A DNA stretch of 45,753 nucleotides from a virus. The notes below the pieces were generated by a model. That model searched no databases, was not told the DNA's origin, and worked only from the letters and a program-made list of their open reading frames with translations. Shown here piece after piece: positions 1 through 44,678 of the stretch; position 1 is the stretch's first letter, and every line of letters begins with the position of its first letter. Location of the stretch: positions 1 through 45,753 of the IMG/VR virus record IMGVR_UViG_3300050119_000086; one strand, written 5' to 3'. Made by a program: the position numbers and the translations under genes.

Positions 1-1077
1 CAGATTATTGTTGTAAAAATTATACGTTCCTACGTATAGACAGTATTGAGAACCAACCCCGCCAGGACACCCGGCAGAAGGCGGTAGAGCGGCCCCCATG
101 TCTATGACGTTAGAGACATCCGTATCGTAAGATACGTTGTTCCACACGTTCGCCGTAGTTCCCTGAACGGGGGCGATCCACCAATTAACGACGCCCGAAG
201 CGAGATGGGCGCAGACATTGTTGTAAAAATTAAGTCCCTCGTCTACGTTATCCTCAAAACAGTTTGCATGGATGGACCCTGTGAAATCTGGCCCTATATT
301 CGTTATCAAGTTGTCATGGACGGATACAGGGCCATCAAGCACGATGCCGCCGCTCAAATTTTTGATGATATTGTTGTATACGATGCTTGGTCCGGTTGTC
401 ATTCCGGCGCAACCTGTTTTTCCGGAAACAACTGAATCGGTTCCATCCAGAACACTGTCATGCAGAGTAGTTCCTGTCGTACCGTTCGGAACTTGGGAAT
501 CGCCCTCTATGAATGCACAGTTTTCATCTGCTCCCGTGTAGGTGAATCCGTGCATGTAAAGATGGTCGTAAATTGCGCCAGTTCCACCAGTCTTAATCGC
601 GTCCAAATAGACAAGACCGTGCGTCGCATCGAAGTAACCACCAGTAAATTCAATATAGGACACATTCAATAGCAGGTTGTGGGCATCGAAGACATATCCA
701 CCGCTGACGGACACTCCACCTGCGTTCAGGATAGGTCGGTTCCATGCAGTCGAGCACCCTGTTACCGTGTTATCCCACCATGTCTGATCCAGACCACCAG
801 TATTTATTGCCGTAGTCTCCGCAACATACATAGGCACCCATGGAAGCGCAGCGGCAGGCCATGTTACGCACCCTTTAAGAATCCATTGGTCTGCGGTAGT
901 GGTTCCTGCGATAGTTGTACAGGTCGAAGCACATCCGACCATGCCGGGGGCATGCTTCAGAGGTAACAGTTTAGTCCCAGCATTCGTATCAAGACCATTA
1001 GTGTAGTCGATATAGTAGTTCGTGGCCCATAGAGGGGTTGCCGACAAGAAGAACAAACATAGTAGGACGTTCTTCAC
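1..1077 (-). CDS. Secreted right-handed beta-helix protein (fibre/lyase-like), 3' part beyond window
   Basis: The frame is open from a GTG at 1077 to the window edge (359 codons), so the C-terminus is missing. The GTG overlaps the stop of the upstream gene as GTGA. The N-terminus (MKNVLLCLFFLSATPLWA) is a Sec signal peptide with predicted cleavage after LWA. The mature protein begins TNYYIDYTNGLDTNAGT, an opening shared by many pectate-lyase-like parallel beta-helix proteins. Recurrent rung motifs such as NFYNNV, YNNIIKNLSGG and WNNVSYD follow. It is the last of five consecutive signal-peptide proteins coupled to the phage tail operon. A surface-glycan-binding or depolymerase role is inferred from fold type only; catalytic residues cannot be assigned. 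Confidence 0.75.
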   Translation of the reverse strand, partial: MKNVLLCLFFLSATPLWATNYYIDYTNGLDTNAGTKLLPLKHAPGMVGCASTCTTIAGTTTADQWILKGCVTWPAAALPWVPMYVAETTAINTGGLDQTWWDNTVTGCSTAWNRPILNAGGVSVSGGYVFDAHNLLLNVSYIEFTGGYFDATHGLVYLDAIKTGGTGAIYDHLYMHGFTYTGADENCAFIEGDSQVPNGTTGTTLHDSVLDGTDSVVSGKTGCAGMTTGPSIVYNNIIKNLSGGIVLDGPVSVHDNLITNIGPDFTGSIHANCFEDNVDEGLNFYNNVCAHLASGVVNWWIAPVQGTTANVWNNVSYDTDVSNVIDMGAALPPSAGCPGGVGSQYCLYVGTYNFYNNNL

Positions 1078-1829
1078 GGCGACACCTTAAACGCAGAGAA
1101 TGCCATGCTACCTTCTGCGGATGAAGACGCTGTGGCTGTACAGTCATAGGTTCCTATAGACGAAACTATATTAGTAATCATCGAAATGCTGGAAGTACTT
1201 GCCGAGCTAGCGTTGTCGAGTTGTTTTGTCCATCCGGAAGTTCCTGTAAAAGTTATGGTGGACGAGCCATCCACATCGGCCGAACAAATAAGCACATCGT
1301 TAGCATGGGCCGTTGTCGCCATGCCGCTGACCCAGGAAGTAGTCGCACCGAATCCGGTCTGGGCTGCATGGGTATCAAGTACAGAAGTGGTGTTCATCCC
1401 CGAAAGCTCGATTACGTTGACAGCCATTGGATTGCCGCATGCTCCGCAGTTACCGGTTACGCTTGTGACTCCGGCCCCGATGTTCGCGAAATAATCCATC
1501 CGGCAGTAACGGTTAGAACTATTCGTGCAGGCTGTGTTGTAAACGTTGGAATAAGTATTTGATCCGCTGTCTGTTGTGAGCGTGAGTTGGTTGGTTGGTC
1601 CTGTATCCCCGAAGACATCTACTACAAGAAGATCCCCTGCGAGCGTTGCGGTGATAACGCAGTTCGCGTTTCCATTTCCGGCGCATTTAACCGATTGAAC
1701 GATAGCCGCTCCACTGCCGCTTCCCGGATTAAGCGTAACCGATCCATTTAATGTCGCCGGTCCTACGACAGTCACCTGCCCATAGCAGAGCGGCGCGGCG
1801 AGAAGTAATAAGGCTACTAGTGTTCTCAT
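1074..1829 (-). CDS. Secreted beta-rich fibre-associated protein, paralogue of the next upstream gene
   Basis: A 251-residue protein with a signal peptide (MRTLVALLLLAAPLCYG, cleavage before Q). The mature part is rich in Ser, Thr, Gly and Ala, with several Cys pairs (CAGNGNANC, CGACG). Its pattern (a leader with C-N-C spacing, then LAGDLLVVDVFGD, a TDS-NTYSN turn and NVIELSGM) parallels the adjacent gene at 1843-2592, so the two look like a tandem duplication of one beta-sandwich domain. No enzymatic motif was recognised. It is co-directional with the tail genes, 13 bases after the preceding stop. An adhesin or fibre accessory role is inferred. Confidence 0.7.
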   Translation of the reverse strand: MRTLVALLLLAAPLCYGQVTVVGPATLNGSVTLNPGSGSGAAIVQSVKCAGNGNANCVITATLAGDLLVVDVFGDTGPTNQLTLTTDSGSNTYSNVYNTACTNSSNRYCRMDYFANIGAGVTSVTGNCGACGNPMAVNVIELSGMNTTSVLDTHAAQTGFGATTSWVSGMATTAHANDVLICSADVDGSSTITFTGTSGWTKQLDNASSASTSSISMITNIVSSIGTYDCTATASSSAEGSMAFSAFKVSP

Positions 1830-1842
1830 TTAGTTAACCACC

Positions 1843-2592
1843 TCATGGTCCTGGAGCGAAGGCTCCTACTTGTTGCCCATAAACTGCCGAAGCTGTCGGT
1901 TTAATAGCGACGGTCCCCGTGGCAAAGTATCCCGTGACGCTTCCATTCGTTATTGTAGGGGTAATTGATCCATGAGTGCTTTGTACTTGTCCCTGGATCG
2001 CCGCTCCGTACGTGCTCGATTGAACCAATATGGTACCCGTGCCGGCCGTGTAAGTAGCACCCGCTTGAGCCGTGTCTTCAAAATCAGAGAGGATAAAATC
2101 TCCATTCGTTGCGGTTGTTATATTGGCGGCGTTGATCGTGCTTCCAGACGTAATCGCACCAATGTTTGCCGTTGCGTGTCCATCAAGCGTGTTAGGAGAG
2201 CCAGATATTTCCACTGCTAGGATTGTTATTGAATTGTTGGTAGTCGTGTTGATCGTAGGAACGCACGCTGCCGTGGCCGATGCAGATCCCCATCCGTGAA
2301 GCATGGTGCCCTTGCTCGTTACGACGACTTGCGTATCTGTGGTGAACGTCACGTCAGCGCAGTTCGTGAAAGTAATGGTGGTACTTGTTCCATACACAGA
2401 AGCACTTACGAAAACGAAATGGCCGGCGGTGACGTTTGAACCAAAGGTACAGGTGGCTGAGGCACCGAACGAATTTGACCCGTGGCAACTCTGCACGCAG
2501 GTAAAAGCTCCGTATGCTGTATTGCTGCATTGAGCGATAACTGGAATGCAGAACATGAAAAACAACAGGAGCGTTCTTTTTAGGTGTCTCAT
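1843..2592 (-). CDS. Secreted beta-rich fibre-associated protein (tandem paralogue)
   Basis: A 249-residue protein beginning with a basic signal peptide (MRHLKRTLLLFFMFCIPVIA, cleavage before QCS). The start ATG overlaps the stop of the upstream gene by four bases (ATGA). The mature domain has Cys-bounded beta motifs (CVQSCHG, CTFGSNVTAGHFVFV) and a VEISGSPNTLDGHA segment that corresponds to IELSGMNTTSVLDTHA in the following gene, which is why I call them paralogues. There is no recognised catalytic signature. Its position within a run of fibre-like genes suggests host-surface interaction; this is inference. Confidence 0.7.
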   Translation of the reverse strand: MRHLKRTLLLFFMFCIPVIAQCSNTAYGAFTCVQSCHGSNSFGASATCTFGSNVTAGHFVFVSASVYGTSTTITFTNCADVTFTTDTQVVVTSKGTMLHGWGSASATAACVPTINTTTNNSITILAVEISGSPNTLDGHATANIGAITSGSTINAANITTATNGDFILSDFEDTAQAGATYTAGTGTILVQSSTYGAAIQGQVQSTHGSITPTITNGSVTGYFATGTVAIKPTASAVYGQQVGAFAPGP

Positions 2593-4790
2593 CGCGTGAC
2601 TCTACACTCAACGGAAAGAGCGCTTGGCGTGATGCTGGAGCCTGTGTTGTTTATTTGATAGACGTTGATCGTGTTGGATGATGGATACGGAATGATAGTC
2701 AGCATCGCGCCTGCTGCATAACCTGTTGTACTCGTAGGATCGCCCTCAAATCCACAGCTAATAACGTCGAATGGAGAAGAAGTTGCTACCCCCGTGCAGG
2801 TTCCTGTCGCTGCCGTCCCTTTCGCTCCCGAAGAAATTGCGCTCGTCCCCAAGGCTATCGAAACTTTACAGACCGTCTCTCCGGCTACAAAACCCGAGGA
2901 CGAATCTGTATAGACACCCGCAGCAGTAACTGGCACGGCCAGTGTTTCAGCGCTGGAAGTTAATCTACGCTTATATGAGGAACCATCCGGTTGAGTGTTT
3001 ATATATTCCGATATGGATGTAGCCGCTCTTGTACAAAGACCATTTGCCCCATCTTCGCAGATCGCACCATCGCCAAGGTTCGATGCTGGGCGATGGCTAG
3101 CTGTTGCAACCGTAGCCTGATAGCTTCCGTCAATCATCGTGATGATGTCGAGATTAGTAGATGCGGGGTTCTTGTCCCCAAGGTTAAGTACGCCCTTGAT
3201 GTTGCTCACCAGAGTTCCAAAATCCACCTGTGAAGGCATCAGCAATGCAGGCCAGTAGTTCGCAGTCCCGTTCAATCCTATTGAATTGTCCGCGATTGGG
3301 GAATAAGGAAAAATGTTGGCAGTAGTGCTCTTGTACCCTCCGAAATAGGTCACGTTCTTGATAGCCTGATTGAAAGAATTTACGCTGACATCCATTCCTA
3401 TCGTATCGGTTATGAGAGTTGCTGGGGACGTGGCCGAGCCCTCGTTTCCTGTAGCGGGTACGGATAGGACTCTCGCTCCTGGCCACAATGCAAGAAACGG
3501 ATAATAATTCGTGTTTGCAGGAACGGTGTAGGACGTCAAGGAGCCAGTCGGGACCGTATCTATGAACGTGCAGACATTGGTTCCGCAGGTCGCCTGAGTA
3601 TATCCGGTGGTTACCGCAATGTTGGCCGTGCCGCTGGGAGACACATAATCGCCTCCCGCAGTGGCTGTCAGGCGTATAAGAGCATAGGTGGTGGCAGTAC
3701 CGATCTTTGGCCACACGACATTTATAGAGTTTGTTCCGCTCAGTGTGGCATTACCTGCGCTTGCATATCCTGCACCCAAAGGAACGCTGCTGTTTCCGCT
3801 CAGGGTAGCCACAACCCAGTATTGATATAGAGTCGTGCCGGCAGTTCCGTTTGTCGTGAAATTCGGATAGCCTCCGCCGGTCTCTGGATTGGTATCGACG
3901 AGCCGTCCACCCTGCATAAGTATGTCCGCTTGGGATATATTCCCGAAAGGATTCGTGCATCCGCCTTCTCGGTATACATTCGTCAGCGTTACTGCCCCCT
4001 GCCCACCAACAGCGTTCGCTAGGATGGCATATTGAGAATAGGATTGAATAACCGTGTCTTCGACGCTGAGTGAGTTTCCACCGGCCCACAAGATCCCATT
4101 CCCACTGCACTGCATAGACAGATTCGATTTTGACACGTAGCCCACTGGAGCGTTGCTTCCTCCCAATCCACGAATAGCAGCTCCTACGAACGTCGATGTC
4201 TTGGTGATAACAGCGTTGTTCCCGCCGTTCGTGTCGATCCCTTTCATCTGTGCGGCTTGGTCATTGTCGATCTGAATGCCATAGTCGAATGTATAGGTAC
4301 TACTTGCGACGAATGAAATGTCCTCAATTTTAGAAACCTGCCCGTTGTCCTCGATGGCAGCAAAGCGTGTGCCTGCCGTTCCACTAGAAGGAGAAAAGGC
4401 GAATCCCTTAAAAGAAATATCGGTGTACATGCTCGCCGTGCCTGAATTGTTCAGAAACACACAAGCACTGCCTGTAACCGTGCATGTAAAAACGGCTCCA
4501 TAACCGGTCACTTCGATGTTGCTTTCGTTAACTAGAATTTCGGATGAGATCGTATACGCACCGGGAGGCACTATAACTTTTCCGTTCGGCCCTGCTGCCG
4601 TGATGGCCGCATTTATCCCGGCACTCGTTAGGGGATACGTATTACCGTCAACCAGGACGATGTTGTTGATATTTGTGGTGGTGACTTTTCCGAACTGGTA
4701 GTTCTGCGCGTGAACCGTTTGAACGCGTGCGACCTCTATCCCTACAAATATAAGTACAGCGATATAGATAAGAGCAAGTTCTCTTCGCAT
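2589..4790 (-). CDS. Secreted pectate-lyase-like beta-helix tail-fibre-type protein
   Basis: A 733-residue protein with a signal peptide over roughly residues 1-28 (hydrophobic core LALIYIAVLIFVGI, predicted cleavage after VHA). Residues about 45-330 look like a pectate-lyase-3-type beta-helix: an AGINAAITAAGPNGKVIVPPG opening, then NNSG, NGGN and GGN turns. The middle is low-complexity Gly/Thr/Ser with a fibronectin-like LIRLTATAGGDY stretch. The C-terminus (about 640-733) has Cys residues and beta strands typical of fibre tips. The ATG lies one base after the preceding TAA, so it is translationally coupled to the giant fibre gene. Depolymerase activity is possible but no catalytic residues are assigned. 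Confidence 0.75.
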   Translation of the reverse strand: MRRELALIYIAVLIFVGIEVARVQTVHAQNYQFGKVTTTNINNIVLVDGNTYPLTSAGINAAITAAGPNGKVIVPPGAYTISSEILVNESNIEVTGYGAVFTCTVTGSACVFLNNSGTASMYTDISFKGFAFSPSSGTAGTRFAAIEDNGQVSKIEDISFVASSTYTFDYGIQIDNDQAAQMKGIDTNGGNNAVITKTSTFVGAAIRGLGGSNAPVGYVSKSNLSMQCSGNGILWAGGNSLSVEDTVIQSYSQYAILANAVGGQGAVTLTNVYREGGCTNPFGNISQADILMQGGRLVDTNPETGGGYPNFTTNGTAGTTLYQYWVVATLSGNSSVPLGAGYASAGNATLSGTNSINVVWPKIGTATTYALIRLTATAGGDYVSPSGTANIAVTTGYTQATCGTNVCTFIDTVPTGSLTSYTVPANTNYYPFLALWPGARVLSVPATGNEGSATSPATLITDTIGMDVSVNSFNQAIKNVTYFGGYKSTTANIFPYSPIADNSIGLNGTANYWPALLMPSQVDFGTLVSNIKGVLNLGDKNPASTNLDIITMIDGSYQATVATASHRPASNLGDGAICEDGANGLCTRAATSISEYINTQPDGSSYKRRLTSSAETLAVPVTAAGVYTDSSSGFVAGETVCKVSIALGTSAISSGAKGTAATGTCTGVATSSPFDVISCGFEGDPTSTTGYAAGAMLTIIPYPSSNTINVYQINNTGSSITPSALSVECRVTR

Positions 4791-4791
4791 C

Positions 4792-7700
4792 TTAGTTCAC
4801 CACCAGATAGCTGTAACACGCTGGATTTGTTATCGGTGCCGCGGGCACCGTGATCGTGAAACTTGTGCCTCCCGTACGCGCGGTGACGGACGGAAGCGCT
4901 GCGGTCGTGTTGCAGGTGACTCCCAACTTAGTTCCCAACGAAGAATCGTACTGGATCGCAAGTTGCGAATTCGCGGACACTCCGGTAGTATCCACGACAA
5001 CTGAAGTAGCTGCTGCCGCCACGACGACGGACCCCGCCGTTGCGGAACCGCAGACCGCGGGAGACGCGCTGCTGGTGCAATTCCCCGAGAAGCCGGTAAC
5101 ACTACCCCACGTCATGGGCGATGATCCGCCGCCGCCAGATAAAAGAGCTTGTCCAGCGGTTCCTGCCGTGGTCGGAAAGTTGAAATTATAAGTTCCTGCC
5201 GCCGCTTGAGTCAGGAATGTGATAGCTCCAGAGGATGAGCCTCCAGCACATTGATATCCGCCACTCGCAACCGTACATCCAGCACCAATGGAAAGTGTTT
5301 CGGAAGTACTTACCGTGGTTCCATTATCCGTAATGCTTGAATTAGTCGGCGCTCCCCCTGCTCCACCGCCCTTAACCAAGATATTCGTATTCAGGATTCC
5401 GGAGCTTGTCAGTACCGTGATACTGCTGAAGTAGGGGACACCACCGGATATGGTGGTTCCCGCTACAGCCTGCGGGAAACTGATACCCCCGCCTCCTGCA
5501 AAACAGTTCACCGCTGAATTGAAGATCACGTCGCCACCGGAATCCTGGCAGAGCGCACCGGTGATGGTCCCGGTCGTCTGTAGTCCGGTAGCGATCACAT
5601 GGGCACTGAAAGTCTGGGCTGCGCTGAATGTCTGGGCCAAGTTCAGCTCGGCAATAGTTCCGGTATTAGCCGGGAACGTGGCCGTGTTCGTCCCGGCCAC
5701 AGCGGGGACGGAAAAAGTAAGCGTTCCGCTTGTCGAGCCCCCTGCGCACATATACCCGCCACTCGCGCATGGCGGCCCACCGGAGCCTACGATTAAATCT
5801 CCCGAAGAGTCGGACTTCGGTCCCAGAGTACCGAGCGTCGTGGCTGTTCCGGATGCGGTGTATCCCGCGAGCGTGTACTGAGGCTCGGCTGTGATCGTAC
5901 CGCTGCCGCCGCCGCCGCTTCTGACGATTCCAAAGTAGTTCGTGTTATCCGAATAAAGCGATACGCATTGGCCCGTCGTGAGCGCAAGCGATGATGCTCC
6001 GCCCGTGTATCCGGTGCCCGTGGAATAGCTGATCGTCGAAGTAGCAGGCGTGATCGTCGCCGTGCCCGCGCCGATGTTGCAGGACGCGTTCACCCAATTC
6101 GAAGCGAAGCCCGTTGAGCCAGCCTGCGGCAGCGTCACCGCGATGGAAGAGGCATTACTGAAAGTCACATAGGTAGCACGGTCGGCCCAGGTATTAGCGG
6201 CTCCGTAGGTATAGCTCGTGCCAGTCTGCGAATTCGGGGGGACACCCGGAAGAGATGCGGTCGGCGCGACAAGGGCACCCCCGGTGATGTTCATCGTATA
6301 TTGGTAAATCCCGTTCGCTACTGCGGGGCAGATACTTCCGAGTGTGGATGTTGTGGCCCAATCCGGAAGACAATATTGCGTGCCCGTTCCCGGCCCGCTG
6401 CCTGCGTTTGCAAGCACGAACGCATCGGTTGCCAGTTTTGTGGTGCTATCGCCAGTTGTCTGCGTGGTCGCCGTGGTTCCGTTTGGCAATGCAGGAGTGC
6501 CCGAAAGGTTCGCCGCTGTCCCCGTCGTGTTCTGATTGAACGTCGGGAAGCTCGTCATGTTCGCCGCGCTAATCGTCGGCGCCGTCTGGTAGCTTGGCGC
6601 GCCGGCCCCTCCCGCAGCAGGTCCAGCGAACACGGAATTCTGAGCGGCATTTGTCAGCGAAAAGGAAAGTGCCGGAGTGCTGGTTGCCGTGGCTACGCTT
6701 GTCGTAAAGAGTGGCGAGAGAGTGCCGGCGCTGAAATTTGTAACTGAGCCAGTTCCCGTAGGGATCGCGCACGCTCCAGCGCCATTGAGATAGCTCGATG
6801 AATTGCACGTGCCAGTCCAGAGACCGTAAATTGTAGATGAAGTGATCGAAGCTGTCGTGACCGCGGTAAGCTGTCCCGCCGCGTTGTAGGTAATCACGGG
6901 CACCGAGGTCGCGCTGCCAGTCGGACCAGCGGCGGTGATTACTCCGCCTTCCGCTACTTGGTTCGTAGCGGTTCCGAACGTAGGAGTTACAGTCCCGGCC
7001 GTCACGCTTAATCCTGTCCCTACTTCCATAACTCCTAGCGCCCCCGTTGTGGCTGTTGGGAGATAAGTGGCCGCTACGGTGCCGCTGGTTATCTGAGAAC
7101 CGGCAAATGCTAGACTGCTGACTGCTTCATTTCCGAGAGTCCCGCCATTGTTGTAGAGCACATAGGCTGTCGTGCCGGAAGCTACGGTTGTCGTTCCTAC
7201 GGTGATCGTCCCTGCCGATGCGCTGATCGTGCAAGTAGAACCTAGCGTGCAAGTCTGCCCGTTGACCGTCGTGGCCGCATTCGCAAGCGCAGAATTTGGA
7301 ACAGCCTCATAGGTGATTGTATTGGTGCCGGTAACGACTGGAACCGTGTTGGTCGATGGTCCCGAAGGAAAGCTGACTCCATTCACCGCTGCAACGGTCG
7401 GTGTCGCGGTCGTTACGGTTGTAAGCTGACCTGCGGCATTGTATGTAATGACCGGGATAGCAGTAGCACTGCCCGTTGGACCTGCTGCGGTGATGGTGCC
7501 GCCTAGCACCACATCGCCGGATGCCGTTCCCGTTGCAAGAGAGGTCGTCCATGCCGATCCGTTCGATACGGCGATTCCCGAGCCGGGATAGACCTGAGAA
7601 GTTAAGCAAGTGGAGCATCCGATTGCTCCTGCCGCGCTGATGGTTACTGGCGAGGTCCCGCTAAGCCCTGCGGTGCCTACTGAAGCGATGGGGATCGCGG

Positions 7701-10596
7701 CCGGTATCTGGGCAACCGGGACAGTCCCCGAGTTTATCTCAGACCCCGCAATGCTCTTGTTCGTGAGCGTCTGCGTGTCGGTGGTGCCAACAATCGTTCC
7801 CACGGGCGCCGCGACCGAGGATGTGAGAGTGGTAGAGCTTCCCGCGATGGGTATTTGCCCGGTGGTCAGGCCCGATATGCCGCTAGACCCGCCGGACCCA
7901 TTTGAGGCCGCCGTAATCGAACCGTCTGCAGCGACCGTTAGGTTCGTGTTCGTGTAGCTTCCGGGTGTGACTGCGGTCGAAGCGATGTTTGCGTGGGGCA
8001 GCAGGCCGGTCACAATCGTTGATCCGCCAGCCAAGTTGATCGCGCCTACCGTGATGTCTGCGCCACCGTTCCCCAGAACGGGAATCCCTGCCGTGAGTGC
8101 CCCGGCTGTATGCGTCACGGTTCCAGTGGACGTTCCGCAGGTTATCTCTGGAGGAAATATGTCTACTGGATAGATTCCGGCCGCGACATTTGTTTCTAGT
8201 ACGCGCCCCACAACCTGCCCCCCAGAGGTTGGACATGTAGCAGAACCAGAATCGCGTCCTTCACCGTCCGCTATGATGCTGATTTGAATATAATCACCGG
8301 CCGTCGTTGGCCCATCTATGCCCAATGAACCCTTAAATGCCGACTGAATCGTAGCGTTTCCGGTGATGCCAGCACCCGCCACAACAATACCGACAGCTCC
8401 TCCTAGGGCACCTGCTGGCGTTATTACGGCAGTCGAAGGAGCACCGGTCAGAGATGCGAGCTTGTATATCGCCGTCCCGGTTGTAGCCGCATTTGCTATC
8501 GCAAAAAAGCTCTCCGGACAGCCGGTGATCGTCAATGTTCCGGCACTCGTAGCGCAAACCGGAGCTGCTACAGTACTCCCAAGAGTTGGCAGTTGGAGAC
8601 CGGCAGGCTTGAGACGCATCTGCTCAACGCAGGGAGCGGTGGTAGCCGAGATGCACCAGTATTGCTCGGCATCGGAAGAGCCGACATATTCAACGCCCCA
8701 GGCGGCAGTAGCATTGAACGACTGAAAGAAAATGTTAGGACCTAGACCATTCACGTTGTTGTTCTGCTGATATAGAAATAGTCCGCTGGGTAGAACAGCG
8801 GCCGGGTTGTAAGCTCGCGGGTCGTCGAAGGTCCATTTTATGACGGGAGGAGTGGTGTTCTCCACCGAGGTTGCGTCCTGCGTCAGCGTGTTTACGAATG
8901 CTCCCGCAATGGAGTCGGTAGAATAAGCGCCGTTAACCGAAACTTGTCCCGAATAGTAGACGGAAGCTCCGCTTGCCACGGCGAAGCGCGTAAAATTGGC
9001 GGAGCATCCCGTGCATTCATTCGACCATAGTAGGTTGGAATTAGCATAGAAGGACACGTCCGCAAAATTAAATAGCGTGGAGCCGGCGGTCATATTGGAG
9101 GAACCTTCCCAATCGTTGCCGCTGATGAACGGCGATCCGCTTGAACCGTTTTCAGCGTCAAATCCGTACTGGCTCGGACCCACGGTCATTCGGATCGAGT
9201 ACATGGAATTGTATTCGTATGAGCTGCTCCCGCCGCCAACTGTCATACGAATCCCTTTCGTGTTGCCGTCCTGCACGGGGCCACCAGTGCTTCCGTGGAT
9301 GCCGAACTCCAGGTGGAAAAGGGTATTGCGCTCGAACCAGCCGTTCGTATTGTTCAGCCAGAGCGCCGTGCCCCCGTTGGCTCCTGTCCCTTGGAAGTTG
9401 TCGAAGTCTAGATCGCTGAATATTCCTCCGACGCGGTCTCCTCCCTCCATGCCAACTTGGTTGGGATAGGAGGCGGATGTTCCCTGGCCCACGAGAGTGA
9501 ACCCGGAGATCGTTCCTGCGGGGGATATCACGAATGGGTTCACCCGCGTATCCCAGCAGGGACCGTTGACTTGGCAATTTATGAACAGGGACTGAGCTCC
9601 AGGACCGATAACGCTCACGTAGGGACTGTTGATTACGACTTCCGTGGTCTGCGTTACCGAGTAACCCGCGCATCCCGCGAAGCTGATTACGCCGTTCGCA
9701 TAGCCTCCAGTAGTAGGGAGGCTCGCGTATGCGGCGTTGAGCCACGCGCCAATGTCCGATCCGGCCCAGTTCGCTACGTTCGCGCAGTCCACCTGCCGTA
9801 CCGTCTCGAACGAAGGAATTGTTTCGTTTCCGGTGGCAACAGTGTAGGTGTGGCGCGGGTCTCCCGCGATGCCTGCTGAACCTCCGTAGGCAATCTCAGT
9901 GCTGGACACGCCTCCGAGCAGAAAGGATTCCCATGCTGAGCCGTTATAGAACTGCGGAACTTCTGAAACATTAGAGATATCTCCGGCAACCGGCACCGTG
10001 GGCGCCGCGCCCGCTGGAAGATTGAATCCGGCGGAACTCGTCGTGCTTGCGGCCGTCGTGGCCTTTCCAGGGAAAACAAACGGACTGCAGATCGAAAGCG
10101 CTGGCGTCGTGCTAGGACTCGCTACGCAAATCTGAGAGCTCGCTCCAGTGACATCGGTGACGGTTCCGCTTGCGCTGCCCGCCGCCGTTGCGCGCCCCGC
10201 TTCGGTCCACACGGAACCGATCAGTGTCAGCGTGATCGATATGGCACCCCCTGAATTGCAGGTGAAAGGAGACGCCAGTGCGATGTTCGCGGAGTATGAA
10301 GAAAGCGCGGTAAACGTATCTCCCGACGCACAGATTATTCGAATCGTCTGGCCCGTAAATCCGTTTAAGAAATTGGTGATGATCGTCGCTGTGGTATTCG
10401 CAGTAATGTAGTTCGCGGGAGGCCCGCTCGTTGGCGTCGATCCGACGGTAGGCGTCGTTCCGGCCTGGAGAGTTACATAGCCCCCATTGCAAGGAATATT
10501 CGATGCGCAGTAGAAGTTCGTCGTTTGTGCCTTTACGGCTCCTGACATGAGAAGAAGAGCCAGTAATGGGAAGAAAACTTTAGTTATATTTTTCAT
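4792..10596 (-). CDS. Giant tail-fibre protein (1934 aa) with N-terminal signal peptide
   Basis: The protein starts with a convincing signal peptide ([23 protein letters not shown], cleavage before Q). Residues about 260-640 form a beta-helix, starting near [20 protein letters not shown]. The rest is Gly/Thr/Ser/Ala-rich fibre shaft with hallmark phage-fibre motifs: [14 protein letters not shown] near residue 945, [10 protein letters not shown] twice near 1054 and 1237, and [12 protein letters not shown] near 1389. Two CAGG(S/T)-type repeats lie near the C-terminus. Paired cysteines recur (CTLGSTC, CSTC). The start is six bases after the stop of the true tail-fibre gene. Fibre motifs and a Sec signal in one reading frame are unusual, because tails normally assemble in the cytoplasm. 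Confidence 0.85.
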
Positions 10597-10602
10597 AAGT
10601 CG

Positions 10603-11382
10603 TTACGTCGTTGTATTGATCAAGCACTCCAGAGCGACCTTGAGGGTGTACCCTCCCGGCCCTCCAGAAGCTCCTGCTAAAGTAGTTCCAAAGCTGATCG
10701 CCTGCGCCCCTTCGCAATCGAAGACTTGGGAATATTGGATGTAGCCGCCGACCGTGTTCAGGTTGACCGTCGTAGTTGCCATGGTTATTCCAACCCCGCC
10801 GCCGCTCGTAGCCGTGCAATATGCCTGCAGCGTCCCGGCAGTCCATCCTGCTGCTACGATTTCCGCTTGAAACGTGACGCGGTAAAGTCCGTTAACCATT
10901 GGGTCGGTATAAAGAACGGTGGGGCCAACCGCTGCGGTCTGACCGTAAAGCTTTACGTGCTCGATTACCGGGTCGAGTTCTTGCAACCAGGTGGCGCCAT
11001 ACGGAATTGTGTTGGGATTGACCGTATTGTTATCGACGAGCGAACGCCAGTACCCTAGACCTCCGGCCATCAGTACGCGCGCGCCCTGTGGGTACCCGCC
11101 TATAGCCGTAGAAAAGGCTGATTTATATGGGAATCCCCCTCCGGCGCAAACCCAAACGTCGATTGCCGACATTTGGTACAGGCCGCCATTCATGTCCGCT
11201 TTTGCCGGCGGCACTCCTCCAGACGTAACAGGTGTCGCGCATAGCGGCGGAAAACCGTCCGTCCACGAAGCCGCGCCCGGTGTCACCCCGATTTGAGATG
11301 GAACCGGGATAGGACTCGTTTTTAAGGAATCCCCATTGCCCCAGGGGAGGACAAGTTGAGTCGGTGCGCTAGCTAACAGCAT
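10603..11382 (-). CDS. Tail fibre / baseplate-attached receptor-binding protein
   Basis: A 259-residue protein without a signal peptide. The N-terminal part (LPWGNGDSL, then PPLCATPVTSGGVPPAKADMNG, AGGGFPYKSAFSTAIGGYP) matches the conserved N-terminal segment of many phage tail fibres that dock on the baseplate. The PP-x-x-DMNG and GGYP-x-GARVL elements are the recognisable parts. A C-terminal beta domain (about 140-259) probably forms a knob. It overlaps the DUF2612 baseplate gene by 14 bases and precedes the giant fibre. It may be the adaptor that links the baseplate to the longer fibre. Confidence 0.8.
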   Translation of the reverse strand: MLLASAPTQLVLPWGNGDSLKTSPIPVPSQIGVTPGAASWTDGFPPLCATPVTSGGVPPAKADMNGGLYQMSAIDVWVCAGGGFPYKSAFSTAIGGYPQGARVLMAGGLGYWRSLVDNNTVNPNTIPYGATWLQELDPVIEHVKLYGQTAAVGPTVLYTDPMVNGLYRVTFQAEIVAAGWTAGTLQAYCTATSGGGVGITMATTTVNLNTVGGYIQYSQVFDCEGAQAISFGTTLAGASGGPGGYTLKVALECLINTTT

Positions 11383-12220
11383 AAGGTTGTCCCGCTTGCA
11401 AGAATGGCTCCTGATTGAATGGTGCAGCCCATGTCGCTCCCATTTCCTTGAATCCGAACACCGGAATGTTCGTGGTCACAACCCATCCCCCAACACCTGC
11501 GGGCCTGAGAAAAACACCGGTTTCCGTGATGATATCGATCTCGAATGGCTCAAGAGGAAATTCGAACATGTAACGGATTTCCATGTTTCCGAGATCGTTT
11601 ACGTAGCACCTGCCCCGACCAGCCATCCAGTTTTGCAGGAGAATATTGATTGCCGGAGAAGTCGCAACCGAGATGTTACTGAGCGCCTTTAGTAGAATAA
11701 ATTCCCGAAATTGCGTGTCGGTGAGAATAGTCGCCGGACTGGTCGGGATCGTGCGCGACACTCCGACGATTCTTCCCCAAATATCCAGACCGAATCCCTG
11801 CGCCGTTGCGACGTTCCAAATCCAGGCATAGAAATTATCGATGTCCAGACTGGGATCGATCGCAGAATTGAAATTCCGAATAAGCGCGAGCAGCGTTGGG
11901 CTGTTCGCATACTGAGAAATGACGGTCTGCTGCCAGAGCCTAAGTTTCGCAGAGGGAAAGGTTACGATTTCTTCTTCGACGACGGTGAGCAACCACCAAG
12001 GATCGACTAAAACAGTCGTCGGATAGTCTCTGGTGCCAGACGGAACGGTTTCAAACTCTCCAGTAGTCGTGATGGTCAGTTGCCACGATGCACCGCTCGA
12101 ATCGTTCAGATAAACGCCGACAACCGTGCCGCTGGCTCCCGGTGTGGCGCGTAGTTCTCCAAGGACATCAACCCAGACTGTCCAGAGGACCCCGTTCGAA
12201 TCTTCGAGAATTATCGGCAT
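11369..12220 (-). CDS. Baseplate wedge protein, DUF2612 family (gpI-like position)
   Basis: A 283-residue protein. The central region has the DUF2612 signature: LLALIRNFNSAIDPSLDIDNFYAW, then a WNVATAQGFGLDIWGRIVGVSR core around residues 125-155, and FREFILLKALSN. DUF2612 proteins sit after baseplate protein J and before tail fibres in many myoviruses, in the place of P2 gpI or T4 gp53. They contribute to the baseplate wedge. The C-terminus (PVFGFKEMGATWAAPFNQ) is family-typical. The start is one base after the J-like gene stop. Confidence 0.85.
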   Translation of the reverse strand: MPIILEDSNGVLWTVWVDVLGELRATPGASGTVVGVYLNDSSGASWQLTITTTGEFETVPSGTRDYPTTVLVDPWWLLTVVEEEIVTFPSAKLRLWQQTVISQYANSPTLLALIRNFNSAIDPSLDIDNFYAWIWNVATAQGFGLDIWGRIVGVSRTIPTSPATILTDTQFREFILLKALSNISVATSPAINILLQNWMAGRGRCYVNDLGNMEIRYMFEFPLEPFEIDIITETGVFLRPAGVGGWVVTTNIPVFGFKEMGATWAAPFNQEPFLQAGQPYAVS

Positions 12221-12221
12221 T

Positions 12222-13445
12222 TCACGTTGCCACCGTGATATTGCTCGCGTTCAAAGTAGGCTGCTGATCGATCCCTATCTGCGCATCAAATCCGCTTGGA
12301 GAAGGTGCGAGCCCTACGAGAATGCTGACGAGTGTCGCACCCGTGCCGATAAGCACGCTAAGAACCGCCGCATAATAACTACTAGCGGTGATCAGCGAAG
12401 CGATGCCCGCGGGGTTGTTGTCGTTCTCTCCGTTGAATTGCGCGATGATTGCAGCCTGGATCAATGCCGCAAGTCCGCTCGGGAGCGTCGTAAGAGTGAC
12501 GGCAAAATAAACCGCCGCAGTCCCAGGGACAATGAAGCTCACCGGATAGCTGGGCGGAGGACTGCTGTATCCATTCGTATCGGTAACGGTTACGGTTTCA
12601 AGGCTGCCTTCGCCGGCGGCCGTTTGGTACGAGCAACCGGAGTCTTTGAATTTCCAGATGGCTTGAGCGATGGCTGGCGCTTCGCCGCCAAGGACCGCGA
12701 CATAAATCGAGTGCGCGGCCAACGGATAATTTGTCGATCCATAATTCACCGTGTTTCCGGAAGGATTGTCGATCACGTAACAATTGAGCACGCCAGGGAC
12801 AGCGGCGACGGCGGCGAAAATCGCATCCGGGGTTCCATGACTGTTCGCGGCCACCGAGTTCTGTCGGCGCAACTCGAAGGCTTGCGAGCTTTCTACGTAG
12901 TTTCCCAATGTTCCCGCGCCTGGATTAGTGATCGTGTCCCAGCCGGAAATGGCCTGATAAATCTGCGTGAGCGTTCCTGTAGCGCAAGGAATCGGTCCTG
13001 TAACGAGATTTGCCCATTCGCTTGTTACCGTTCCGCCGGAACCAATGGTCACGGCATCGAGCAATTGGTATGTATTCCCCGACGTGTCCAGCGCAAGAGC
13101 CCCTGCGGGGATCACCGTTCCAGAAATTCCGCCAAGCGTGCAAATCACAACCGTGGATACGGCTGGATCCCTCGTCATGAAGTACAGGCGTCCAATCGCG
13201 TCCTGGAAGCGCCCCTGCGCGTATTGCGGATCGACCTGATTGGCGATGTAGGCTATCTCACTGTTTTTCTCGGCAACGATCGCCGCCTCGCTCGAGGCGA
13301 GCTGCCCTTGCGGAGTCGATAGGCCGGGATTTACGCCGCCGCCGAAAGCGGTGTCGATGTCGCTCTGCGCGCCAGAAAGAATCGCCGCATCCGTGGGAAG
13401 GATGACTCCTTCATCTGTCCATGTGATCGGCGGAATGCTGCTCAA
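12222..13445 (-). CDS. Baseplate J-like protein
   Basis: A 407-residue protein with baseplate J features: an N-terminal helix with PQGQLASSEAAIVAEKNSEIAY, then DAIGRLYFMTRDPA, a beta domain (GTVIPAGALALDTSGNTY) and FELRRQNSVAANSHGTPDAI near the middle. The C-terminal half has VYFAVTLTTLP and AIIAQFNGEND. J-like proteins (P2 gpJ, T4 gp6) form the wedge ring that triggers sheath contraction. The start overlaps the preceding gp25-like stop as ATGA, matching the order W-like, J-like, I-like. Confidence 0.92.
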   Translation of the reverse strand: MSSIPPITWTDEGVILPTDAAILSGAQSDIDTAFGGGVNPGLSTPQGQLASSEAAIVAEKNSEIAYIANQVDPQYAQGRFQDAIGRLYFMTRDPAVSTVVICTLGGISGTVIPAGALALDTSGNTYQLLDAVTIGSGGTVTSEWANLVTGPIPCATGTLTQIYQAISGWDTITNPGAGTLGNYVESSQAFELRRQNSVAANSHGTPDAIFAAVAAVPGVLNCYVIDNPSGNTVNYGSTNYPLAAHSIYVAVLGGEAPAIAQAIWKFKDSGCSYQTAAGEGSLETVTVTDTNGYSSPPPSYPVSFIVPGTAAVYFAVTLTTLPSGLAALIQAAIIAQFNGENDNNPAGIASLITASSYYAAVLSVLIGTGATLVSILVGLAPSPSGFDAQIGIDQQPTLNASNITVAT

Positions 13446-19142: not shown

Positions 19143-20669
19143 CTACAGAATGTCGATAGAGGCCATGTTGATCTGCTGAACCGCCCCACCGTCGGTGAAC
19201 CACAAATTGATAATGGGTGTTTGTCGCGCAGCGCGTGCCGTTGCACCCGGATCTAGAATTTGCAGGTAGTATCCGTTCGTCTGGATGACGGTCGAGACGG
19301 ACAAGCCAGCCGCGGCGTTCACCTCCGCAGCCTGTGCGCTTGAAAGCACGACTCCTGTTTCAATCGCTCCGAAGATCAGCGCGCTTGCGATAACGCCCTG
19401 CAGCGAGGCGCGAATGAGCCCGTAGCCGAAAGGATCGTAGGGGATGCTGTTGATCGTCGTATAGAGCGTCAGCAATGCCTGCTGCAACGCCGCGTTCAGC
19501 CAAATTTGATCGATGAACTGATCTGCCCACGGAAACTCACCCGGCATGTTGCCATTACTGAAAAATACGAAATTCGACGTGCGCGAAGCGAATGCGGCAT
19601 AGCAGTTGTATCCGTTCGCGAGCAAATTCTGATAGGTCTGTTGATTTGCGCAGTTCGGAACGACCGCGGCGGACTGTGAGCCTTTGCTGGCAAATGTGAT
19701 TCGGCCATTCGCCGCGTTGAAATTAATCGCCGCAACCATACCCTGGAAAAAGGCTGCGATGTTCAGGTTGAGCGCAGCGAGCGTTCTTCCGGAAGGGACC
19801 GCCGCCGGATCGCCCCCGATACACATAACGCTTTCGTAGCCGGCGGCCATCGCAACGACTCCGAAAGGTTCTGTAGCGTTCTGAACGCAGGCTTGCGTGT
19901 CGCTGTCCCAGATAACCCCAAGGTAGTAATCGTCCTGATCGTCGAGCCATGCGGCGAGAGCTTCTTTGTCCGCAAGGTCCGGTTCGGTGAGGTAGCTGAC
20001 CGTGGCCCAGTTCTGATTGACGAACACGGCATTATTCATGGCGCTGGCGTACGTATCGACAGCGGCGCCCTGCGAAAGCGTTGCTCCGGTAGCCGCAGTC
20101 AAATTCAGGCCGGCCGCGAGGGTTCCAGTGCAGTCCGTCATCGTGGCCGTAGCGCCGGTTGCCGTGCTGGTGAAAACGAACGCGCTTTGAATCGAATCCC
20201 ACGCAAGAGTGAAAGTCGGACTCGTGAATCCAGCTAGAATGATCGTGGCCGCGTTGCTAAAGCTGCTGGCCCCAGTCAGGACGATCGAAGCAGAAGTGAA
20301 TTGGGTCCCGGCAACCGTAAGGATCAGCGTGCCGCTCAGGGCCTGCAGTTCGGTAAGCGTGAGAGATGCCAGCGATCCCGACTGCAACCATCCAGATCGC
20401 GCGGACGCGTTGTAAGGCGCAAACAGGATCGTCCGAGGCTGAATGGTCTGTCCGTTGAACCCGGCAAAATAAATTTGCGCGTATGCATATTCCGCGGAAG
20501 ACGGACCGAAGAAGTTAGAGACTGCCGTCGCACTCGCGAATTGCAGCACCGTCCCCGTCGGCATCAGCAGGCTCTGTGTCAGCACCAGGCCGTTCATCAC
20601 CAGTCCGAGTCCTCCAGGAGACAGGACGCCGGGTGTGACGCTAACTATTTGCGATGCAGGAATAGTCAC
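19143..20669 (-). CDS. Tail sheath protein, DUF3383 family
   Basis: A 508-residue protein with DUF3383 features: MTIPASQIVSVTPGVL, AVSNFFGPSSAEYAYAQIYF near residues 48-68, then a large insertion domain rich in Thr/Ala (about 100-200), LADKEALAAWLDDQDDYYLGV, and a C-terminal half with FSNGNMPGEFPWADQFIDQIWL. The contractile sheath surrounds the tube. The start overlaps the terminator gene stop by four bases. Confidence 0.93.
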   Translation of the reverse strand: MTIPASQIVSVTPGVLSPGGLGLVMNGLVLTQSLLMPTGTVLQFASATAVSNFFGPSSAEYAYAQIYFAGFNGQTIQPRTILFAPYNASARSGWLQSGSLASLTLTELQALSGTLILTVAGTQFTSASIVLTGASSFSNAATIILAGFTSPTFTLAWDSIQSAFVFTSTATGATATMTDCTGTLAAGLNLTAATGATLSQGAAVDTYASAMNNAVFVNQNWATVSYLTEPDLADKEALAAWLDDQDDYYLGVIWDSDTQACVQNATEPFGVVAMAAGYESVMCIGGDPAAVPSGRTLAALNLNIAAFFQGMVAAINFNAANGRITFASKGSQSAAVVPNCANQQTYQNLLANGYNCYAAFASRTSNFVFFSNGNMPGEFPWADQFIDQIWLNAALQQALLTLYTTINSIPYDPFGYGLIRASLQGVIASALIFGAIETGVVLSSAQAAEVNAAAGLSVSTVIQTNGYYLQILDPGATARAARQTPIINLWFTDGGAVQQINMASIDIL

Positions 20670-44471: not shown

Positions 44472-44678
44472 TTACCTTTTCGCATTTACCGATTGTACCG
44501 GCAGCGTCGCGCGGCACCATCCTTGCCACGACGAACTGAGCCGGCAGGGATTGCTGGTCCCGTAGTAGACGTTAAGGCGTCGCCACGAGCCCTTTATCTG
44601 CAACTGCGCGCAGCCGGCTAGGAAGATGGCGGCGATGGCGGCGCCGAAAACATGGCCTTGAATACCGGATAGACACAT
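44472..44678 (-). CDS. Putative small lipoprotein
   Basis: A 68-residue frame whose N-terminal hydrophobic stretch ends in a lipobox (AAIAAIFLAGC). The mature part CAQLQIKGSWRRLNVYYGTS would be about 46 residues. It overlaps the preceding gene by 61 bases and has no good ribosome site, so the start is uncertain. Its location in the lysis cluster is compatible with an outer-membrane spanin, though it is not Pro-rich like Rz1. Confidence 0.5.
   Translation of the reverse strand: MCLSGIQGHVFGAAIAAIFLAGCAQLQIKGSWRRLNVYYGTSNPCRLSSSWQGWCRATLPVQSVNAKR

Follow-up and report, generated by a model that had tools for sequence, protein, structure and literature searches.

Five consecutive genes at the end of a myovirus contig encode proteins that begin with predicted Sec signal peptides (SPs), and judged from their sequences these fibre- and spike-type proteins are very probably exported and folded with disulfide bonds. 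The observation of five exported-looking genes holds up and is even stronger than originally described. A preliminary description of this DNA had called them exported, cysteine-paired, fibre-like and coupled to the baseplate operon, and this core claim finds support both in independent statistics and in the recurrence of the design in other phages. In textbook assembly, every tail fibre of a tailed phage joins the virion inside the reducing cytoplasm; recurrence of SP-bearing fibres in cultured phages challenges the view of tailed phages as built wholly in this compartment. A literature search retrieved no description of Sec-exported fibres in tailed phages apart from the notes in GenBank records of the Bcep781 group.

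Tail module and organization of the five genes

The window analysed here, 45,753 bases long, covers an entire IMG/VR contig. According to Pfam and PHROG searches it encodes TerL, portal, head protease, tail sheath, tape measure, baseplate J, a DUF2612 protein and a short phrog_12796 fibre, and its source phage is a myovirus. Both the contractile tail and the true tail fibre gene reported ahead of the five were recovered, as a phrog_205 sheath and an SP-less phrog_12796 fibre, respectively (Table 1). The DUF2612 protein also matches phrog_587 "head and packaging". This label looks misleading, because the position of the gene points to a fibre-attachment baseplate protein.

The five genes come after the fibre gene on the same strand, from 10596 to 1, and are nearly gapless. 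Gene 1 is separated from the fibre gene by 6 nt; further spacings are 1 nt, a 4-nt overlap, 13 nt and a 4-nt overlap, in agreement with the one to thirteen bases or stop/start overlaps described previously. Since gene 5 runs off the contig end, five is a minimum number. Location in the late operon after baseplate genes, which is expected of tail fibres and tailspikes, was found for all five. Elsewhere in the window, a small lipoprotein-like ORF (MCLSGIQGHVFGAAIAAIFLAGCAQ...) occupies positions 44472-44678 of the minus strand.

Table 1. Tail genes, the five SP-bearing genes and their parts in the window (^, predicted cleavage)
Feature	Position	Strand	Remark
Tail sheath (contractile tail)	19143..20669	-	phrog_205
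Baseplate J	12222..13445	-	PF04865; phrog_6
DUF2612 protein, probable fibre-attachment baseplate protein	11369..12220	-	PF11041, 2.4e-40; role by position
First tail fibre, without SP (cytoplasmic-type)	10603..11382	-	phrog_12796 baseplate-docking N-domain, 3e-32
Gene 1, SP-bearing fibre-like protein, 1934 aa	4792..10596	-	38 mature Cys in 19 close sequential pairs
Gene 1 signal peptide, 23 residues	10528..10596	-	^QTT
Gene 1 repeated fibre domain, aa 1000-1243	6868..7599	-	common to 26 other viral loci
Gene 1, aa 1699-1766	5299..5502	-	57.7% identity to SP-bearing tail fiber gp13 of cultured Acidobacteriota phage Tunturi_2
Gene 2, SP-bearing protein, 733 aa	2589..4790	-	N-terminus pectate-lyase-like by eye; 12 mature Cys; orphan
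Gene 2 putative signal peptide, long c-region	4707..4790	-	MRRELALIYIAVLIFVGIEVARVQTVHA^QNY; read from sequence, missed by rule
Gene 3, SP-bearing protein, 249 aa	1843..2592	-	6 mature Cys; orphan
Gene 3 signal peptide	2533..2592	-	MRHLKRTLLLFFMFCIPVIA^QCS
Gene 4, SP-bearing protein, 251 aa	1074..1829	-	8 mature Cys; orphan
Gene 4 signal peptide	1779..1829	-	MRTLVALLLLAAPLCYG^QVT
Gene 5, SP-bearing protein, at least 359 aa (contig end)	1..1077	-	beta-helix-like by eye; 10 mature Cys so far
Gene 5 signal peptide, GTG start	1024..1077	-	MKNVLLCLFFLSATPLWA^TNY

All five products had been regarded as fibre-like. This clearly applies to gene 1: the classic fibre motifs noted in one product were located in its 1934-aa protein, which contains TQTLTNKSI and two copies of a 10-residue fibre motif. 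It fits the others unevenly: on visual inspection, genes 2 and 5 resemble beta-helix spikes, and genes 3 and 4 (about 250 aa) are without recognised relatives. Pfam and PHROG searches gave no match for any of the five proteins, Pfam revealed no recognised glycoside-hydrolase or catalytic family among them, and PDB sequence searches with genes 1 and 2 gave no match. Relatives of genes 2, 3 and 4 were not found where searched. The AlphaFold model of gene 2 was of low confidence (pLDDT 36) and was set aside.

Signal peptides and cysteines

Signal peptides were called by a rule-based scan of N-terminal properties, eight E. coli leaders serving as positive controls. Judged by n-region charge, hydrophobic core and small residues at -3/-1 near residues 17-28, leaders are clear in four of the five genes and borderline in gene 2. 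When about 50 non-overlapping ORFs of the window were scanned, the rule returned genes 1, 3, 4 and 5 together with one false-looking hit. Cleavage is predicted before Q in four of the five leaders. The initial reading of a signal peptide on every product, mostly cleaved before Q, thus stands, with four textbook leaders and a less typical one on gene 2.

The background rate was estimated from ORFs located upstream of the fibre in 77 dereplicated related loci. There, signal peptides were called in 3 of 242 ORFs of at least 300 aa and in 4 of 347 ORFs of 150-299 aa (about 1%); just downstream of the fibre, 22 of 66 large ORFs carry one. Because the upstream background is this low, five SP-bearing genes in a row are far beyond chance. 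Further, nine close relatives of the window have leaders that vary in sequence but not in their properties, and an invariant SGxxPPPPP follows closely on each of them.

Exported, disulfide-bonded proteins of E. coli and B. pseudomallei have been described to prefer even numbers of cysteines (PMC7678975). Parity was determined, after cleavage and for Cys-containing proteins only, in a sample of 797 dereplicated proteins from related phage and prophage loci. Even counts were found in 57 of 64 SP-bearing proteins (89%) versus 258 of 594 SP-less ones (43%; Fisher p=4.6e-13), and in 45 of 50 SP-bearing proteins once these were restricted by hand to fibre-region genes. The mature products of the window's four complete genes all have even counts, as does the cut gene 5 (Table 1). 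Cysteine content in a curated fibre set amounts to 1.65% with and 0.66% without signal peptide (p=2.5e-7); the window's five proteins reach 2.15%, compared with 0.55% for the remaining late and replication genes of the window. A raw comparison of SP-bearing and SP-less downstream ORFs proved uninformative since spurious ORFs were mixed in, and the curated fibre set and parity test were used instead.

Cysteines of gene 1 are arranged in consecutive close pairs, with a mean of 15 residues within and 89 between pairs (p<5e-5, two nulls). Significant consecutive pairing was also detected in Tunturi_2 gp12, gp14 and gp17, in L018, L054, L055, L056 (L and G numbers denote loci and contigs) and in Bcep781 gp49, and it is seen in most of the other large SP-bearing fibres tested; genes 3-5 are too small for a decisive pairing test. 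The predictor uses N-terminal properties only, which makes parity and pairing independent lines of evidence. Parity statistics and the pairing in gene 1 both bear out the earlier remark that repeated cysteine pairs fit folding outside the cytoplasm.

Recurrence in other phages and exchange of signal peptides

The same arrangement, for which a search in other phages had been proposed, recurs in soil phages, in prophages, in Tunturi_1/2 and in Bcep781/Bcep1. Among J-family relatives, large SP-bearing genes following the fibre were found in soil phages and in prophages of Rhizobium, Bradyrhizobium, Methylobacterium and Paraburkholderia, and were absent from Achromobacter, Burkholderia and Bordetella prophages of this family. 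The J tree implies at least five changes in the SP state of the second fibre. A second sample comprised contigs carrying the repeated fibre domain of gene 1 (25 loci). The domain-bearing ORF has a signal peptide in 19 of them (two near-copies, one or two weak), and runs of SP-bearing genes reach five in L140 and four in L128. In the former, a soil contig, two genes of the run (L140:2322-12733) have odd cysteine numbers, possibly reflecting inter-chain bonds. Matches to virion fibres in sequence or fold were obtained for the SP-bearing relatives L055, L096, L049 and Bcep781 gp49.

In the phrog_12796 family, signal peptides occur in L055, L096, L047, L052 and L107, set exactly before the usual N-terminus; the former start methionine is still visible behind them in L096 and L052. 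A cysteine pair in the docking domain is present in three of five SP-bearing members versus none of 80 SP-less ones. In the second-fibre family, SP-bearing L098 aligns with its SP-less sister L064 from the first mature residue on; the second fibre of L064 contains no cysteine and has a stop codon just upstream. Judged by these alignments, the predicted signal peptide is a module that ordinary fibre genes acquire or lose at their 5' end, the same family occurring with and without it. Two loci with exported fibres, L056 and L107, are labelled as Patescibacteria MAG REEB45 yet carry myovirus late genes, and the binning may be wrong.

The docking domain was modelled with a mean pLDDT of 73. Its best fold match in PDB is the baseplate-bound fibre of Pa193, a weak one (E 0.02), and its similarity to AP22-like tail fibres reaches E values down to 4e-9. 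In Pa193, the fibre N-terminus and loops contact baseplate gp46 (PMC11042391). AP22-like and Pa193-type baseplate fibres (phrog_12796) include the first fibre of the window as well as the SP-bearing first fibres of L055 and L096; known members are made without signal peptide, unlike the latter two. A single copy of the family, SP-bearing, was found in each of G001 (60 kb), G002 (66 kb) and a Bradyrhizobium genome. In G001 and G002, both of which may be incomplete contigs, every recognisable fibre bears a signal peptide and no other fibre-like ORF was recognised.

Among cultured phages, Tunturi_1 and Tunturi_2, phages of Acidobacteriota (Tunturiibacter), possess five SP-bearing fibre- or spike-type CDS (gp12-gp17) in one late block before the endolysin. 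Like the window proteins, these are Cys-rich with even counts, and Tunturi_2 gp13 shares a 68-aa stretch with gene 1. In contrast to the window phage, both have podovirus morphology and unrelated head and tail genes. The Tunturi paper (PMC11924767) does not mention signal peptides and contains no virion proteome or N-terminal sequence of an SP-bearing fibre, nor was one found for any other phage. No SP-bearing fibre was detected in Tunturi_3 and Tunturi_4 (both scanned over 1-50000) or among Tunturi_5 fibres. In Tunturi_5, a long fibre gene is followed by four tandem related genes of 281-285 aa without signal peptide (L117:33318-36736).

The second cultured group consists of Bcep781 gp49, Bcep43 gp48 and Bcep1 gp51 (Naesvirus, Burkholderia). 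As in the window, these are cysteine-paired myovirus tail fibre genes with a signal peptide (MNMKKNKHVLFGVLLTACGLPAFA^QF), annotated in GenBank as "possible tail fiber; possible signal peptide domain". They differ in that each phage has one such gene, located elsewhere in the tail operon, and they have no sequence similarity to the window's five. Bcep781 gp49 and Bcep1 gp51 have the signal peptide and an adaptor in common and their C-terminal parts swapped, a pattern expected of virion host-range fibres.

A host-specific export route, one of the explanations offered initially, is disfavoured by these comparisons. Tunturi_2 and Tunturi_3 both grow on strain X5P2, the former with and the latter without SP-bearing fibres, and sister phages L098 and L064 differ in the same way. 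A need for export dictated by the host was rejected on the ground of the Tunturi comparison. As for the window phage, the 68-aa match to Tunturi and cleavage before Q would lead us to guess at an Acidobacteriota host.

Export and proposed return to the virion

Besides the host-specific route, the preliminary description had named secreted depolymerases or decoys and fibres that attach to virions after lysis, without ranking them. Attachment after lysis fits best, because SP-bearing relatives keep the baseplate-docking domain. The host Sec machinery would export five late tail-fibre- and tailspike-type proteins during infection, a step that is strongly supported. Signal peptidase I would remove the leaders, and folding of the proteins would take place under the oxidising conditions of the periplasm, with local disulfides joining consecutive cysteines along the shaft, as sequence statistics strongly suggest. 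The contractile virion, its docking proteins and the SP-less fibre would meanwhile be assembled in the cytoplasm. Lysis would mix the compartments, and we infer that the exported fibres and spikes then dock on the baseplate as a last, spontaneous step of assembly. The likely gain would be stable disulfide-laced adhesins and depolymerases unable to mature in a reducing cytoplasm.

Periplasmic export and disulfide folding followed by joining to virions at lysis is, as a whole, a reading that we consider evenly balanced. Late docking is chemically plausible, since complete particles can still acquire P22 tailspikes and T4 long fibres in vitro; to our knowledge, post-lysis docking in vivo is not known for any myovirus. 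However, for a structure housed in the periplasm, a trimer with chains of 1934 aa would be very long, and genes 2-5 are without relatives tying them to virions. In a wider and tentative form, contractile and short-tailed phages may share a general unrecognised maturation route, in which receptor-binding fibres are exported via Sec, acquire periplasmic disulfides and are loaded only at lysis, signal peptides being swapped on and off as an evolutionary module. If export, oxidation and addition at lysis are true, views of fibre stability, host range and recombinant expression change, and the Cys richness of many soil-phage fibres is explained. Cultured Tunturi_1/2 and Bcep781 make the idea directly testable.

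Because the window phage keeps an SP-less fibre, its exported proteins need not be virion parts and may include non-virion enzymes. Taken further, all of them would be secreted depolymerases or lectins. Having left the cell or been set free by lysis, these would degrade surface polysaccharide, prevent re-adsorption to debris or serve as decoys, and the virion would use the SP-less fibre only. We consider this unlikely, yet it is the main rival of docking at lysis. It agrees with the SP-less first fibre kept in many relatives as well, with the pectate-lyase or beta-helix domains of several SP-bearing proteins (L049, L112) and with the accessory-like, orphan character of genes 2-5. It does not explain why in five loci the signal peptide sits on the baseplate-docking family itself; G001, G002 and the Bradyrhizobium genome contain no other copy of that family, and the adaptor with swapped tips in Bcep781/Bcep1 is a layout expected of virion fibres. 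In viromes, SP-bearing fibre or spike genes may be misread as secreted auxiliary metabolic enzymes, or vice versa.

Display on the surface of the infected cell or lysogen, with fibres anchored outside as adhesins or in superinfection exclusion, is improbable. It has a parallel in the MAT fibres of Bdellovibrio, which, like the window proteins, are phage-tail-fibre-like trimers with a Sec signal peptide (PMC10769870). The MAT superfamily has a conserved beta-rich domain of about 130 aa right after the signal peptide and often a C-terminal S74 domain (PMC10769870). Unlike the window genes, MAT genes are located on bacterial chromosomes, their products are shown on the cell surface and many contain S74, which Pfam did not detect in any of the five proteins. 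Moreover, no anchor, autotransporter barrel or sorting domain was found by Pfam, and the five genes sit in a late structural operon.

Equally hard to reconcile with the data is assembly coupled to the membrane, in which the leader would either guide the fibre to the inner membrane, the site of tail docking ahead of lysis, or remain in the membrane as an anchor. Filamentous phage pIII, a receptor-binding protein of a non-tailed phage with signal peptide and disulfides, is inserted into the inner membrane and assembled during extrusion. The long c-region of the gene 2 leader could serve as an anchor, but in most leaders the residues at -3 and -1 are small and Q occupies +1, and cysteine parity and pairing imply full translocation. 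Finally, that the hydrophobic N-termini are no export signals and arose by chance or from wrong start codons can practically be dismissed: the prediction is rule-based and gene 2 atypical, but the leader-plus-cleavage pattern is kept in nine relatives, the background is about 1% and cysteine parity opposes it.

In the cultured temperate Acetobacter phage phiAO1, an SP-bearing fibre-like protein of 820 aa (BCZ75793.1; L108:13342-15804) and, in the late region, a gene annotated as catalase (L108:6180-8303) were observed.
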